Below are positions 3,341 through 50,085 of a stretch of 64,000 nucleotides of DNA, piece after piece. The translations under genes were made by a program, and so were the position numbers. Origin of the DNA: Planctomycetaceae bacterium (lineage in GTDB: Bacteria; Planctomycetota; Planctomycetia; Pirellulales; Pirellulaceae). Location of the stretch: assembly GCA_002723275.1 (NCBI GenBank), contig PBNZ01000031.1:58447-122446 (forward strand), written 5' to 3'. The notes beneath the pieces are model-generated. The model did not search any database. It worked only from the letters and a program-made list of their open reading frames with translations, and was not told the DNA's origin. Position 1 is the stretch's first letter, and each line of letters begins with the position of its first letter.

Positions 3341-3539
3341 CTGAGGCGAAGTTCTTTCCGGGTTCCGGGGGCGGTCAGCGACCGCGTTGTGAATGGACAC
3401 TCCGCAACGATCAAAGCTGTCCGATCCTGATCTCCCATTCTATCGCGAAATGGGAACTGCCAGAATCGCACTCCCTTACGATTGCAGAGCGATCAGCTGA
3501 GAAATGGAATTGCCTTGTGACGGTCGGGCATCGGCTGGA

Positions 3540-44376: not shown

Positions 44377-45291
44377 ATGTTACGACGCAGTTCGAGTTTC
44401 TTGGGAATCTTGGGTTGTCTGGGATTGTTTTTGGGTTGCGGCGGTGGCGGAACCAGCTCGGATGATATCGTCCGAGTGAGTCGCCAAAACAATTCTGGGA
44501 CTTACGCCTACTTTCGAGAAGCAGTCCTCGGCAAAGAAGGGCAATTTAAGCTTGGGTCTATCGATCAGAGTGGATCTAAGGATGTGGTTGAGTTGGTTTC
44601 GATCACGCCGCAAGCCATCGGCTATTCCGGCATGGGCTATGCCACTCCAGAGGTGAAGATGCTGGCAGTCAAAGCCGAGGGCGCTGATGCCGCGGTTGCT
44701 CCGACGTCGGAAAATGCAGCCGCTGGAGCCTATCCCTTGGCTCGTGGACTCTACATCTATCTTCTCGGCGAACCCGAAGGTGCAACGAAGCATTATCTCA
44801 ATTGGATCATGTCGCCTGAAGGACAGAAAATTGTTGAGGACATTGGTTACGTTCCGATGCCGGCTGTCGAAGTCACTGACGAGACTGCTCCTCCAGAAGC
44901 AACCATCAAAGTTGCAGGGTCGGACACGATGGTCAATGCTGCTCAGGCGTGGGCTGAGGTCTACATGAAGAAGTATCCCCAAGTCAGCATTCAGGTTTCC
45001 GGTGGCGGTTCTGGGGTAGGTATCGCAAAGTTGATCGATGGTACCGTTGATCTGGCTAATGCAAGTCGTGACATGAAGGAAGAAGAACGCGAGCAAGCCA
45101 TTAGTAAGTCCGCCGGCAAAGAGATTAAGGAGATAACGACCGCTCTGGATGCATTGGCGGTTTACGTCCATAAGGAAAATCCTTTAAATGAAATCGACAT
45201 CGAAGATCTAAAACAGATCTATGGCGATGGTGGTACGATCCAGAAATGGTCTCAAGTTAAGGGTTATCCAGCAGATGACGCTACAAACTAG
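44377..45291 (+). CDS. pstS: PstS-type phosphate-binding lipoprotein, circularly permuted
   Basis: A 304-residue lipoprotein (lipobox Cys21). Residues 30-162 match the second half of PstS: VRVSRQNNSGTYAYFRE, AIGYSGMGYA, VAPTSENAAAGAYP, LNWIMSPEG, YVPMP. Residues about 176-298 then match the first half: IKVAGSDTMVNAAQAWAEVY, VSGGGSGVGIAKLI, DLANASR, LAVYVHKENPL, IYGDGGTIQKWSQV. In ordinary PstS the order is the reverse. A short linker (about 163-175) joins the old C and N ends. The frame is continuous, and the 3' end overlaps pstC by 17 bases in the usual operon manner. It should still fold as a two-lobe phosphate binder. Confidence 0.85.
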   Translation: MLRRSSSFLGILGCLGLFLGCGGGGTSSDDIVRVSRQNNSGTYAYFREAVLGKEGQFKLGSIDQSGSKDVVELVSITPQAIGYSGMGYATPEVKMLAVKAEGADAAVAPTSENAAAGAYPLARGLYIYLLGEPEGATKHYLNWIMSPEGQKIVEDIGYVPMPAVEVTDETAPPEATIKVAGSDTMVNAAQAWAEVYMKKYPQVSIQVSGGGSGVGIAKLIDGTVDLANASRDMKEEEREQAISKSAGKEIKEITTALDALAVYVHKENPLNEIDIEDLKQIYGDGGTIQKWSQVKGYPADDATN

Positions 45292-46333
45292 TCAGAGCGA
45301 AATTGCCTCCGGCGGATCGAAGTCCTCCGGAGGGCTGTCGCAACTGCTCAACCGGATCTCCGATAAGCTCGAACCCGTTATCGAGTGGACGATCTGGTTT
45401 TGTGGGTGGAGCTCAATTATTTTCGTCGCGGCCATCTTTTTGTTTGTCGCGATTGAGGCCGGGGGGTTCTTCGAGCAGGTTCTTGACGAGGAAACCAACA
45501 AGCTGGAATACCGCTGGAAGGGCTTCGAGCCGATCAAGGGCTTCACTTTCAAGGAGTTCTTTACGAGCATTAACTGGCGACCCGATCGGTACGATAAGCC
45601 GGAGTACGGGATTTTGGCGTTGCTGGTGGGAACGGGGGCAGTCACCATTGGGTCGATGATCTTGGCCGTGCCACTCGGTCTCGGGGCAGCCGTCTTTATT
45701 TCCGAATTCTGTACCGGGCGAGTTAAAGAGACGCTCAAGATTGTGATTGAGCTACTCGCGGCGATCCCGTCCATTGTCTGGGGGTTTATCGGGGTAGTCG
45801 TGCTCGGACCGCTGATTGTCAGTGCGACGCACCAACTGAGTCACATCATTCCCGGTTTTCAGCCAGCGTTTGTCGGTGTGAATGTTCTCAACGCGAGTAT
45901 CATTTTGGCGTTAATGAGCGTTCCCGTCATTGTTTCTGTCGGCGAAGATTCACTGAAGGCGGTGCCGGATTCCTATCGCGAAGCCGCTCTCTCGTTGGGA
46001 GCCTCTCGTTGGGAAATCGTCTATCGCGTCCTGTTTCCGGCCGCCAAGAATGGATTGTTGGCCGCTGTCTTGCTCGGGGTGGGTCGAGCCATTGGTGAAA
46101 CAATGGCCGTGTTGCTCTGTACCGGACACGCGGTGAATATTCCGACGAAATTGACCGATCCTGCTCGAACCCTTACGGCGACGATTGCTTCAGAGCTTGG
46201 GGAAGCCGTGCGGGGCGGTGATCACTACCGAATTCTGTTCTTCATTGGAGTTGTTTTGTTTGCCATCACGTTCGTTGTGAACTTAGTCGCTGATCTGGTC
46301 GTGAAAGGCATTAAGGGACAAGACAATGCCTAA
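45275..46333 (+). CDS. pstC: Phosphate ABC transporter permease PstC
   Basis: A 352-residue permease with about six membrane helices, a BPD_transp_1 domain and the EAA loop REAALSLGASRWEIVYRVLFPAA. PIVSVGEDSLKAVPDSY, ending in IGETMAVLLCTGHA, matches the PstC subfamily. An extended loop of about 45 residues lies between the first two helices (LDEETNKLEYRWKGFEPIKGF...). The ATG lies within the last codons of pstS, giving translational coupling. It heterodimerises with PstA in the inner membrane. Confidence 0.95.
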   Translation: MTLQTSQSEIASGGSKSSGGLSQLLNRISDKLEPVIEWTIWFCGWSSIIFVAAIFLFVAIEAGGFFEQVLDEETNKLEYRWKGFEPIKGFTFKEFFTSINWRPDRYDKPEYGILALLVGTGAVTIGSMILAVPLGLGAAVFISEFCTGRVKETLKIVIELLAAIPSIVWGFIGVVVLGPLIVSATHQLSHIIPGFQPAFVGVNVLNASIILALMSVPVIVSVGEDSLKAVPDSYREAALSLGASRWEIVYRVLFPAAKNGLLAAVLLGVGRAIGETMAVLLCTGHAVNIPTKLTDPARTLTATIASELGEAVRGGDHYRILFFIGVVLFAITFVVNLVADLVVKGIKGQDNA

Positions 46334-47612
46334 ACATGATAATTTAAGATTTGATGCTAGTTCTGTACGCTCCTTCGTTGTCTGTGCGAATGCCGGTGAC
46401 GATAGTGAAAACGCGTTTCCAACCTTTGAGAAAGCGATCGAAGGAATCGTTGCCGCCTGTTCGCAGGACGACGCTCATGAACCGGTTGTCGAACGCATTG
46501 AGATTAGCGTGCAGGAATCTGTGAGTGGTTCGTCAAAACGGAAAAAGCCGTCTCGGCACTTCTACTACGATACGCATCTGCTTGGTGCCTGTGGTAACGG
46601 TACTGAACGCGATCCATGGCCCGATATTACATCGTCATTGAACAGTATGGGCGAGATGTATCGTCAAGGGGAGCTTGCGGCGAAGCCAGGTGACCTGATT
46701 TGGCTCGATCGTCGTGAGGTCTTCACCGCGACTGAACACGAAAAAAAGAAGCAGCGTTCGGAGACCATTGCGAAAATCACTTTTCTGATGATGTCGCTTA
46801 GCCTCGTGGCGCCATTGGTGCTGATCTTGAGCTATCTCCTGTACAAGGCCATGCCTGCTTTGACGATGGGGTTTCTCACAGAGAATCCTCGCGACTTCAT
46901 GACCGCGGGTGGGATTTGGGCTCCTTTGATCGGGACGTTCTTCCTCGTGTTTATCTCGCTGATGATTGTCGCTCCGATCGGGATTTTGGCGGGCGTTTAT
47001 TTGAATGAGTACGCCCGCGACAATTGGTTGACCCGTTTGATTAATCTGGCCGTCGTGAATTTGGCAGGCGTCCCGAGTATTGTGCATGCGTTGTTCGGTG
47101 TCGGAGCGTTCGTGCTCTTTGCCAATCTGGGGGAATCGTTGATTGCTGCCTCCTGCACATTGGCGGTGATGACCTTACCTGTGATTATCACGAGTACCCG
47201 TGAAGCACTAGCTGCCGTTCCCATGTCGTTCCGTGAAGCCTGTTGGAATATGGGGGCAAGTAAATGGCAAACGATACGCACGATCGTGCTGCCCAACTCA
47301 ATCAGCGGGATTTTGACCGGGGTGATTCTGCAGGTCGCGCGTGCTGCCGGTGAAACCGCTCCAATTTTGTTTACCGGGGCAGCGTTCTTCATGAATGTTG
47401 CAGACGAAGGATGGGGGTACTACTTCCCCTATTCACTCACCGATAAAGTGATGGCGCTTTCGATGCACCTCTTCACCTTGATGACTCAGGTCAATAACGC
47501 ACCGGAACATTTGGTTTACGGTACGGCAGTGGTCCTGATCGGACTGGTGTTGGCAGTGAATAGTTTTTCGATTGCACTCCGCGTTTATCTCCGTTCGCGA
47601 AAGAAGTGGTAA
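46326..47612 (+). CDS. pstA: Phosphate ABC transporter permease PstA with a long soluble N-terminal domain
   Basis: A 428-residue protein. The C-terminal approximately 280 residues are a standard PstA permease (six helices, EACWNMGASKWQTIRTIVLPNS EAA loop). The first approximately 145 residues are hydrophilic, charged and without a signal peptide; they include a Lys-rich segment (SSKRKKPSRHFYYD). Ordinary PstA is about 280-300 residues. By topology the extension should be cytoplasmic, near the ATPases and PhoU. No known domain was recognised. It overlaps pstC by 8 bases and its stop abuts pstB1. Confidence 0.9.
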   Translation: MPKHDNLRFDASSVRSFVVCANAGDDSENAFPTFEKAIEGIVAACSQDDAHEPVVERIEISVQESVSGSSKRKKPSRHFYYDTHLLGACGNGTERDPWPDITSSLNSMGEMYRQGELAAKPGDLIWLDRREVFTATEHEKKKQRSETIAKITFLMMSLSLVAPLVLILSYLLYKAMPALTMGFLTENPRDFMTAGGIWAPLIGTFFLVFISLMIVAPIGILAGVYLNEYARDNWLTRLINLAVVNLAGVPSIVHALFGVGAFVLFANLGESLIAASCTLAVMTLPVIITSTREALAAVPMSFREACWNMGASKWQTIRTIVLPNSISGILTGVILQVARAAGETAPILFTGAAFFMNVADEGWGYYFPYSLTDKVMALSMHLFTLMTQVNNAPEHLVYGTAVVLIGLVLAVNSFSIALRVYLRSRKKW

Positions 47613-48371
47613 ATGCAACAGGAAATGATGGTTGATTTCGATCAGGTCAAGGTCAAGTATGGCAATGATGTCGCACTTGATGTGATCTCGTTTCAAGTAC
47701 CTAAGAATAGTATTCTCGGCGTCATCGGCCCGGCGAACTCCGGCAAGACAACGATGCTGAAATGCATCAATCGGACGATTGACTTCATCGATTCAGCCAA
47801 AGTCGAAGGTACCGTCATGGTGAATGGTGAAGATGTTCGCAAAGTGCGAAGTGTTTACCAGTTGCGGCGCAACGTCGGGATGGTCTTTCCCCTGCCGGTT
47901 GGTCTTCCGATGTCGATCTATGAAAACGTGGCCTATGCACCACGCCGCAAAGGAATGCATGATCGAGACGAACTGGATGAGTTGGTTGTTCGATGTTTGA
48001 AACAATCGATGCTCTGGGACGAGGTAAAAGATCGATTAGATTCGCTCGGTACGAAGCTGTCCGGAGGGCAGCAGCAACGACTGACTCTCGCGAGAGCTCT
48101 CTCAAATCAGCCGGAGATCCTCTGTCTCGATGAATTTTCCATCGCGATCGATCCGGTGACGACCATGAAGATTGAAGATGTGCTTCTTGAACTCAAAAAC
48201 GAGATGACAATTATTCTTGTCACAAATCTAGTTCAACAAGCCCATCGTTTGGCGGATAATACTCTTTTCCTCAATGATTCCCAATTGATCGAGGTTGGTG
48301 AAACTGAAAAGATCTTCACCGAGCCCGATCAAAAACTTACCTACGAATACGTCACGGGAGGTTTCGGATAA
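47613..48371 (+). CDS. pstB1: PstB1: phosphate ABC ATPase with degenerate Q- and H-loops
   Basis: A 252-residue ATPase. Walker A GPANSGKT (39-46) and signature LSGGQ (149-153) are intact. The Walker B region reads ILCLDEF with the catalytic Glu present. The Q-loop, normally MVFQxP, reads MVFPLP (Pro at 93), and the switch His, normally VTHN, reads VTNL (Asn at 205). It can therefore bind ATP and provide the signature to a partner, but is not expected to complete its own catalytic site. It begins directly after pstA and is followed immediately by pstB2. Confidence 0.88.
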   Translation: MQQEMMVDFDQVKVKYGNDVALDVISFQVPKNSILGVIGPANSGKTTMLKCINRTIDFIDSAKVEGTVMVNGEDVRKVRSVYQLRRNVGMVFPLPVGLPMSIYENVAYAPRRKGMHDRDELDELVVRCLKQSMLWDEVKDRLDSLGTKLSGGQQQRLTLARALSNQPEILCLDEFSIAIDPVTTMKIEDVLLELKNEMTIILVTNLVQQAHRLADNTLFLNDSQLIEVGETEKIFTEPDQKLTYEYVTGGFG

Positions 48372-49205
48372 ATGTTGCAGTCGAATTTACCCATGACGGA
48401 GGGTCAGAAAAGATTGTCGATGGTAGCGAAAACAGGATCACGGTCCTACAGCATCACCGCCAAAGACGTTGATCTTTGGTACGGTGATTTTCAGGCTCTG
48501 AAGAAAGTAACCTTTAATGCCAAGCAAGGTATTATCACAGGTTTGATCGGACCGTCCGGTTGCGGCAAAACAACTTTGCTCAGAAGTTTCAATCGAATCA
48601 ACGAACGCTACGGCAATGTTACGACCGAGGGCGAGATTCGCATCCTGGATAAAAATATCTACGATGATGATGTGTCGCTGAGCGAATTGCGAAAAACCGT
48701 CGGGATGGTCTTTCAGCGCCCGAATCCGCTACCGATCTCGATCTATGAAAACATCGTGTTTGGAGCGAGAGTTCACTCCGGACGTGGAGAACTTAAGCGA
48801 TCAGAACGTGATGAGATGGTTGAGTCTGCACTGCGGGAAGTGCAGTTGTGGGATGCCGTCAAAGATAATCTGAAGCGACGTGCGACCAGCCTCACGCTGG
48901 AACAACAGCAAAAACTGTGTATCGCTCGGCTCCTCCCCCTGAAGCCGCGTGTGATCCTGATGGATGAGCCTTGCTCGGCCTTGGATGCAGAAGGTATCGA
49001 ACGCGTCGAAGAATTGATCTCCAGTTTTCGGGATCGTTATACGGTGATCATCGTCACCCATAATATGGCTCAGGCTCGTCGCGCGACCGATGAATGCGTC
49101 TACATGCTGTTGGGTGAGATTATGGAACACGCTGATACGGCCGAACTATTCTTGAATCCCAAGCGTAAGGAAACGGAAATGTATATCGAAGGACGCTACG
49201 GTTAA
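48372..49205 (+). CDS. pstB2: PstB2: phosphate ABC ATPase with degenerate signature motif
   Basis: A 277-residue ATPase with an N-terminal addition of about 20 residues. Walker A GPSGCGKT (60-67), the Q-loop MVFQRP (Gln115), Walker B ILMDEP (Asp198, Glu199) and the switch His (VTHN, His230) are all normal. The signature, usually LSGGQ, reads LTLEQ (174-178). In an ABC dimer its intact ATP site would be closed by the LSGGQ of PstB1, while the opposite site is doubly defective. The ATG follows the pstB1 stop without a gap. Confidence 0.88.
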   Translation: MLQSNLPMTEGQKRLSMVAKTGSRSYSITAKDVDLWYGDFQALKKVTFNAKQGIITGLIGPSGCGKTTLLRSFNRINERYGNVTTEGEIRILDKNIYDDDVSLSELRKTVGMVFQRPNPLPISIYENIVFGARVHSGRGELKRSERDEMVESALREVQLWDAVKDNLKRRATSLTLEQQQKLCIARLLPLKPRVILMDEPCSALDAEGIERVEELISSFRDRYTVIIVTHNMAQARRATDECVYMLLGEIMEHADTAELFLNPKRKETEMYIEGRYG

Positions 49206-49262
49206 TGGCAGCCAGGTAATGGCAGTCAGTGAGGTAATGGCAGCCAGGTAATGGCAGTCAAC
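49203..49262 (+). repeat. Tandem repeat between pstB2 and phoU
   Basis: TAATGGCAG followed by CCAGG or TCA recurs four times, arranged as a 32-base unit (49203-49234) and a second near-copy (49235-49262). The first unit includes the pstB2 stop codon. An imperfect inverted repeat follows at about 49271-49328, before phoU. The function is not known; it may affect stability or coupling of the downstream mRNA. Confidence 0.85.
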
Positions 49263-49389: not shown

Positions 49390-50085
49390 ATGAAAAAAAT
49401 GGAACGCGAGCTGGCCGTACTCCGCCAGCAAGTCATCGATATGGGGAATCTCACCGAGCAAATGGTGCTGCATGCCATTGATGCCATCACCGATTTCAAG
49501 CATGAAGGGATTACGGAACGAGTGATGAAGGAGGAAGAGCGGCTTGATCAGATGCAGCTAGATATCGATAAGGAAGCGATCCGACTGCTGACCCTCTACA
49601 GCCCTGTTGCCGGTGATTTGCGACTCATTATGTCTGTCTCTCGGATTACCGCGGAACTTGAACGAATCGGCGATCACTCCGTCAATATGTGTGAGAGTTT
49701 GCAGTTGACGCACGCTGAAAAAGAGATCGTTTGGTTGCCGGAAGTCGAGAAAATGGCCTCCGTTGTCAAGGTGATGGTCAGCGATGCTCTCAACTCTTTT
49801 GTGCAAAGTGATATCCGCAAAGCCCGAGCTACCATCGCCAGCGATAATATGGTGGACGCCCTGAATGATCAAATCGTCGGTGAACTTCTCAGTATCGAAG
49901 TCGTGCGTGAAATGCTGAAAGGCCCGACCGATTTGGCGAGCGCCCTGGCACAGTTGCTCATCGCTCGTTCGCTGGAACGGATTGCAGATCAAGCAACGAA
50001 TATTAGTGAAGAAGTTGTCTACATGGTCGAAGGTGACGATATTCGCCACCAAACGCTTCTTGGTGAGTCTGCTGTAACTGAATAG
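49390..50085 (+). CDS. phoU: Phosphate transport system regulator PhoU
   Basis: A 231-residue protein with two PhoU domains: the first with LRQQVIDMGNLTEQMVLHAIDAI, and IADQATNISEEVVYMVEGDD in the second. The metal-cluster motif ITAELERIGDHSVNMCE and its second copy ARSLERIADQATN are both present. PhoU links the Pst transporter to PhoR and represses the regulon in high phosphate. The ATG at 49390 has AAGGAGAG upstream. It follows the repeat region 3' of pstB2 and precedes phoB. Confidence 0.95.
   Translation: MKKMERELAVLRQQVIDMGNLTEQMVLHAIDAITDFKHEGITERVMKEEERLDQMQLDIDKEAIRLLTLYSPVAGDLRLIMSVSRITAELERIGDHSVNMCESLQLTHAEKEIVWLPEVEKMASVVKVMVSDALNSFVQSDIRKARATIASDNMVDALNDQIVGELLSIEVVREMLKGPTDLASALAQLLIARSLERIADQATNISEEVVYMVEGDDIRHQTLLGESAVTE

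Follow-up and report, generated by a model that had tools for sequence, protein, structure and literature searches.

The ATPase of the phosphate importer PstSCAB of Escherichia coli is a homodimer of canonical PstB subunits. That system has one pstB gene, and its parts and fold (9k3s, 9k3x) are of the same kind as those of the planctomycetal locus described here, whereas the latter codes for two diverged PstBs that would share one degenerate composite ATP site. According to the available part of PMC7756269, ABC dimers are packed head to tail, and each ATP site is built from Walker A, Walker B, Q-loop and switch of one subunit together with the signature of its partner. Heterodimeric exporters, such as TAP, MRP1 and Pdr5, likewise combine a consensus composite site with a degenerate one, and the Pdr5 signature (LNVEQ) has an acidic residue at its fourth place, as has LTLEQ of the second PstB described below (PMC7756269). 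In the human degenerate sites treated in the available part of that source, the signature is changed in all cases, changes of the Walker B Glu being the next most frequent. This Glu is often changed in exporters (PMC7756269), whereas it is kept in the PstB pair, which has lost the Q-loop Gln and the switch His; moreover, the pair belongs to an importer and its ATPase genes are separate from the permease genes. The same text reports that MRP1 with Asn or Gln at the switch of its working site kept wild-type-like transport, and that Q-loop changes in this site were not tied to hydrolysis.

Among importers, RbsA and NupO also have one degenerate ATP site, as described in the available part of PMC11466899. 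Both are type II importers with fused nucleotide-binding domains (NBDs), the Walker A Lys being lost in the second half; such a fusion is absent here, a stop and a new ATG lying between pstB1 and pstB2. The E. coli dipeptide system DppABCDF contains two different ATPase subunits, DppD and DppF, each on its own permease, and a single Glu-to-Gln variant of either keeps activity, indicating that both sites work (available part of PMC12136057). A pst-phoU operon with two pstB genes side by side, as found here, also occurs in Firmicutes, namely in E. faecalis (PMC12096839, as far as available) and in the Latilactobacillus and Niallia loci read in the present study (L161 and L162). The tandem PstBs of E. 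faecalis are reported in that source as canonical for Walker A, signature and H-loop; in L161 and L162, the Q-loop, signature and switch were canonical in both copies, unlike in the pair under study. Degenerate sites are known from exporters and from RbsA and NupO; one in a phosphate importer is apparently new, as neither an asymmetric PstB pair nor a degenerate-site phosphate importer was reported among the open-licence literature matches listed. The original prediction, made from the DNA sequence, had recognised the design of heterodimeric exporters in a phosphate importer. The degenerate-site pattern bears this out, although the locus is not the first importer of this kind, since RbsA and NupO precede it (PMC11466899, available part).

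The window, i.e., the whole stretch of 64,000 nucleotides analysed, contained the pair in a pst operon with PstS, PstC, PstA and PhoU, which is the context expected for a PstB (Table 1). The genes for PhoR, PstS, PstC and PstA are located upstream of the pair and those for PhoU and PhoB downstream; PstS, PstC, PstA and PhoU were identified by profile, PhoR and PhoB from sequence and place. The open reading frame (ORF) of pstC overlaps pstS, and the start codon of PstC is uncertain. Furthermore, pstB1 abuts pstB2 with zero gap, the stop TAA (48369-48371) being followed by the ATG at 48372-48374. TIGR00972 was the best model for both ATPases, despite scores below its NCBIfam equivalog cut-off (343.2 bits), so that annotation pipelines may name both poorly.

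Table 1. Genes of the pst operon and ATP-site motifs of PstB1 and PstB2, with positions in the window
Feature	Positions	Strand	Profile score or occurrence
PstS, phosphate-binding protein	44377..45291	+	Passes phosphate-family profile; circularly permuted
PstC, permease	45221..46333	+	TIGR02138, 275.8 bits (cut-off 196.45)
PstA, permease	46326..47612	+	TIGR00974, 259.1 bits (cut-off 193.45)
PstB1, PstB-derived ABC ATPase subunit, 252 aa	47613..48371	+	TIGR00972, 282.4 bits
PstB1 Walker A GPANSGKTT, intact, Lys45	47727..47753	+	Lys in 61/61 readable B1 rows
PstB1 Pro93, replacing Q-loop Gln	47889..47891	+	Pro in 62/62 B1 rows
PstB1 signature LSGGQ, residues 149-153, intact	48057..48071	+	62/62 B1 rows
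PstB1 Walker B Glu174, kept	48132..48134	+	62/62 B1 rows
PstB1 Asn205, replacing switch His	48225..48227	+	Asn in 61/62 B1 rows, one X
PstB2, PstB-derived ABC ATPase subunit, 277 aa	48372..49205	+	TIGR00972, 314.8 bits
PstB2 Walker A GPSGCGKTT, intact	48549..48575	+	Lys in 62/62 B2 rows
PstB2 Q-loop Gln115, intact	48714..48716	+	62/62 B2 rows
PstB2 degenerate signature LTLEQ, residues 174-178	48891..48905	+	L-x-LE[QE] in 60/61 readable B2 rows
PstB2 switch His230, intact	49059..49061	+	60/60 readable B2 rows
PhoU	49390..50085	+	TIGR02135, 173.2 bits (cut-off 130.25)

No further PstB was found in the window's genome at E <= 1e-60, the best other ABC protein being 32% identical to PstB2 (E 6.6e-23). 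Similarly, this assembly (6.8 Mb, 96.6% complete) gave no match to PF01384 (PHO4/Pit; control positive in 10/14) or PF02690 (Na_Pi_cotrans; control positive in 5/14). With no other PstB, Pit or Na_Pi_cotrans match in so complete an assembly, the pair is very likely part of a working phosphate importer, phosphate being its presumed substrate.

Neither PstB1 nor PstB2 carries all ABC motifs in canonical form. In PstB1 the Q-loop Gln and the switch His are replaced; in PstB2 the Walker B is intact as well and an acidic residue takes the place of the second Gly of the signature. The residues and positions given in the original prediction (Pro93, Asn205 and LSGGQ; Gln115, His230 and LTLEQ) were correct to the residue, and so was the complementarity that it had noticed. 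Given the geometry of ABC dimers, the defects of the pair fall in one composite site, changed from both sides, while the other is fully canonical; this held in 59/59 pairs of close relatives read at every motif. The prediction had further called one site intact and the other dead. The asymmetry stands, but the word dead is too strong, since neither the Walker A Lys nor the Walker B Glu of PstB1 is lost, and since MRP1 with Asn at the switch kept transport (PMC7756269, available part).

Related pairs (B1 and B2) were collected by a PstB2 pattern scan of genome contigs, of which the best 80 of 589 loci were taken, and by a PstB1 search of a set of 60 relatives that included the window's genome, which yielded ten genomes with tandem pairs. 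A first alignment held 34 B1 and 34 B2 rows, one genome being represented twice; L095 was dropped from the tallies as a copy of L014. Profiles built from 21 B1 and 20 B2 rows, in which Pro93, Asn205 and the letters of L-x-LEQQQKLCI were invariant, were run on 392 genomes of the phylum. Counting the window's genome, B2 was detected in 28/392 genomes (15/217 of good quality; E <= 1e-110) and B1 in 30/392 (16/217 of good quality; E <= 1e-95). All 28 B2 genes adjoin a B1, and the two additional B1 genes (G246 and G159) border on contig ends, where truncated pieces of B2 were present. The 29 loci fetched after the profile search all repeated the pattern of the pair as far as readable. The two genes were neighbours on the same strand in 62/62 loci read. 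Chance, decay and misassembly of the pair were ruled out by its conservation, by the linkage across the 392 genomes and by the repetition of the whole operon in relatives.

The motif tallies of these 62 loci are included in Table 1; the single X at the B1 switch results from ambiguous bases (L015, which is among the 59 complementary pairs). All 61 readable B2 signatures deviated from LSGGQ, namely as LQLEQ (16), LTLEQ (16), LSLEE (15), LSLEQ (10), LPLEQ (2), LQLAE (1) and LQLEE (1), with one unread. The fifth letter was thus Q or E in this larger set, and LQLAE was the lone departure from L-x-LE[QE]. At E <= 1e-30, with at most 45 candidates scored per genome, the pair was the sole PstB in 5/10 pair-bearing genomes and a further PstB was present in 4/10; the remaining one (G007) gave one weak further match, in an ORF of 519 amino acids.

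A more distant pair with the same complementary logic was encountered in L052 (Verrucomicrobiota). Among the listed matches of a search of the phylum with its PstB1-like protein, 20 were chosen and fetched, besides three further loci; the chosen ones comprised 15 additional distant pairs, four canonical PstBs that were single (L177, L178, L185 and L186) and a PstB1-like gene with no partner found (L167). This brought the distant pairs (B1x and B2x) to 16, with the genes neighbours on one strand in 16/16 loci. Counting L167, the Q position of B1x was Ala (15) or Ser (2), the switch was Asn in 17/17 and LSGGQ was kept in 17/17. The B2x rows had the Gln in 16/16 and the His in 15/15 readable cases, the switch of L183 being unreadable because homology ends at base 3378, short of the switch, on a contig of 3506 bases. 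Their signatures were LSAEQ (6), LSLEQ (2), LSPEQ (2), LLPDE (2), and LPMDQ, LSGEA, LPPEQ and LTPEQ (once each). The fourth letter was Glu or Asp in 76/78 rows of B2 and B2x together, the exceptions being L019 (LQLAE) and one unread row; this position is presumably the one of G551D in CFTR. The gene spacing was at most 200 bases in 76/78 loci of both groups, with 621 bases in L012 and 745 in L029. The co-occurrence of the defects in tandem pairs of relatives, which had been proposed as a check, was indeed found in every fully read pair, i.e., 59/59 in the close and 15/15 in the distant group.

The partnerless gene (L167:1-1218) belongs to bin G203 (89% complete, 1140 contigs) and codes for a PstB1-like protein with Ala for Gln, Asn for His and an LSGGQ signature. 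No B2x was found in the 456 bases to the contig end or elsewhere in G203, the next matches being 34-37% identical. In addition, Poribacteria encode a third PstB-like ATPase between a PstA-like gene, which follows the pair, and phoU (L022:6699-7547, L025:6727-7524, L027:6761-7564 and L028:6781-7566); in this ATPase, Arg replaces the Q-loop Gln and Asn the His, and the signature is LSIGQ or LSRGQ. A strongly diverged third PstB-like ORF with a very long branch adjoins the pair in an acidobacterial locus (L021:5647-6531); it has the signature LTTSM, Thr for Gln and Asn for His.

The other PstBs, 84 in number, retained Gln and His in 84/84, with LSGGQ (74), MSGGQ (9) or LNGGQ (1) as signature. These 84, three of them redundant and a few from genomes also holding a pair, either matched one of PstB1, PstB2, the L052 protein and the PstB family model or stem from loci fetched for these, and so do not form a random sample. 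Tandem pstB genes canonical in both copies, which the original prediction had named as a refuting finding, do exist and were deliberately sought (Latilactobacillus, L161; Niallia, L162; a planctomycete, L164); however, they fall outside both the B1 and the B2 clade. Hence, a tandem arrangement of pstB alone does not mean asymmetry. No pair with only one defective partner occurred among the tandem pairs read; considering asymmetric and canonical tandems together, these pairs have both defects or none. In the Limosilactobacillus locus L163, pstB is split into two short pieces, and this locus was not counted among the pairs. The two canonical pstB genes of L164 (L164:5239-7004) are placed apart in the PstB tree, which points to an independent tandem arrangement.

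Phylogenetic analysis of 87 rows recovered B1 and B2 as clades (100/100 each). In an unrooted tree of 103 rows, calculated without the Q-loop, signature, Walker B and switch columns, B1 plus B1x (100/98) and B2 plus B2x (100/96) were recovered, both excluding the Bacilli tandem pairs L161 and L162. Neither B1x nor B2x alone was a clade (two changes each), and the distant rows look like a grade at the base of the two clades. The distance matrices of the partners were correlated (r 0.86, 35 pairs), also within the two groups (r 0.59 and 0.79); in each case, 0/2000 permutations were as high. The pair was thus co-inherited. The organism labels of the 87-row tree cover Planctomycetota, Verrucomicrobiota, Acidobacteriota, Poribacteria, Thermodesulfobacteriota, Myxococcota and Rhodothermota, although all 24 named B1/B2 loci are metagenome-assembled, so that single organism placements may be wrong. 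A single origin fits, after which the two genes were inherited jointly or transferred as a pair. The asymmetric arrangement apparently arose once and was kept in distantly related bacteria.

The pair probably functions as an obligate PstB1-PstB2 heterodimer with one consensus, hydrolysing site and one degenerate site most likely holding ATP. The core of PstB2 would combine with LSGGQ of PstB1, which should serve the ATP site of PstB2, into the consensus site, and the core of PstB1 (Pro93 and Asn205) with LTLEQ of PstB2 into the degenerate site. The latter would most likely bind and hold ATP with little hydrolysis, so that one ATP would be hydrolysed per cycle and the degenerate site would act as a hinge or timer. 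Binding of ATP at this site is probable because PstB1 keeps the Lys and the Glu, and by analogy with the exporters. The same features would fit a rather unlikely alternative, in which both sites hydrolyse, the poor one slowly, as an asymmetric importer with two engines like DppD/DppF of E. coli, of which both subunits hydrolyse (PMC12136057, available part). Indeed, no readable row of PstB1 has lost the Walker A Lys or the Walker B Glu, and MRP1 kept transport with Asn at the switch of its working site, so that Asn205 and Pro93 may weaken the PstB1 site less than assumed (PMC7756269, available part). A second slow engine is harder to reconcile with the joint and conserved change of the Gln, the His and the second Gly of the signature, now acidic, in one composite site, and with the signature changes that the available part of PMC7756269 reports for all human degenerate sites.

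The remaining explanations concern the role of the genes rather than the rate of one site. It is improbable that one subunit forms a homodimeric motor and the other is a regulator outside the transporter, for instance in PhoU/PhoR signalling, since neither homodimer would possess a complete site (PstB2 lacking LSGGQ, PstB1 lacking Gln and His) and the complementary defects of every fully read pair would be left unexplained; the presence of phoU, phoB and phoR beside the operon, the L167 gene for which no partner was found, and the unequal tandem PstBs of E. faecalis, with pstB2 required and pstB1 accessory (PMC12096839, available part), would agree with such a division. Import of a substrate other than phosphate, such as another oxyanion, would match the scores of both proteins below the PstB cut-off and the permuted PstS, but is very improbable, as PstS, PstC, PstA and PhoU pass phosphate-family models, PhoR and PhoB adjoin, and the genome lacks PF01384 and PF02690 transporters. 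The low scores would also suit a redundant duplicate decaying under relaxed selection; this is practically negligible, given that the residues in question hardly vary among seven phylum labels, a conservation that refutes decay, that no other PstB is present in the genome and that the pair is co-inherited.

More tentatively, with chances that are close to even, the heterodimeric pair may represent an ancient importer class of single origin that runs permanently on one engine, i.e., a dedicated heterodimer with one ATP per cycle and the spoiled site as an ATP-holding hinge. If so, import of phosphate would cost a different amount of ATP, or the system would contain a built-in flux sensor for PhoU/PhoR, and the pair would offer an as yet unexplored model of ABC transport on one engine. 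The need of an importer for two functional sites, and the role of a degenerate one, are matters that have been studied mostly in exporters. The PstB family holds single, tandem-canonical and asymmetric forms, with signature states such as LSGEA, LSAEQ, LSPEQ and LTLEQ, so that these forms can be compared directly in affinity, PhoU signalling and the ATP used per phosphate.

To model the heterodimer, PstB1 and PstB2 were joined as one chain of 530 residues, read through the stop (as Gly), with a paired alignment of seven rows. A mixed alignment of 30 rows was rejected, because its PstB1-only rows were just 32-38% identical to the chain, as if placed on the wrong half. The arrangement of the domains in the fused model is unreliable (pTM 0.60), its best whole-chain matches being the fused DppD/OppD of Mtb (TM 0.45-0.48 of the query, ~15 A rmsd), so that it speaks neither for nor against the heterodimer. 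One half aligned with the E. coli PstB chain 9k3x_C over 248 columns (1.3 A rmsd, 46% identity), and a search with PstB2 gave E 3.1e-72 for the same chain.

The permeases displayed features of their own. The coupling helix of PstA carried W in 59/59 rows of B1/B2 loci matched by a regular expression (61 rows), and that of PstC had E at the same place in 33/44 matched rows (52 rows). Other loci mostly had Y, L or F at this position, with the pattern matching only 37/76 PstA and 8/57 PstC rows. These residues may reflect a dedicated pairing of NBDs and permeases. PstA also possesses an N-terminal extension of ~130 residues (46326-46720), the match to TIGR00974 beginning at residue 148; it was matched at least partly in L092, L093, L098 and L100 and unmatched in most other loci compared.

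PstS of the window is circularly permuted, in the order signal peptide, C-terminal half, linker and N-terminal half. Indeed, its residues 19-176 match the C-terminal half and residues 177-294 the N-terminal half of PstS of L011. A permuted PstS collinear with that of the window was present in three related genomes (G001, G034 and G044; L123, L124 and L129), indicating that the permutation is inherited and no assembly fault, and the usual order was found in the other six operons of that comparison (L125-L128, L130 and L131). No permuted PstS was reported among the literature matches listed. Between pstB2 and phoU, short direct repeats were present (TAATGGCAGCCAGGTAATGGCAGTCA; 49203-49260), as two exact copies and one partial copy. 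Lastly, a PhoU-like ORF is located between pstS and pstC in 20 relatives (L138, L139, L142-L149 and L151-L160), of which only L153 has another PhoU-like ORF elsewhere in the stretch.
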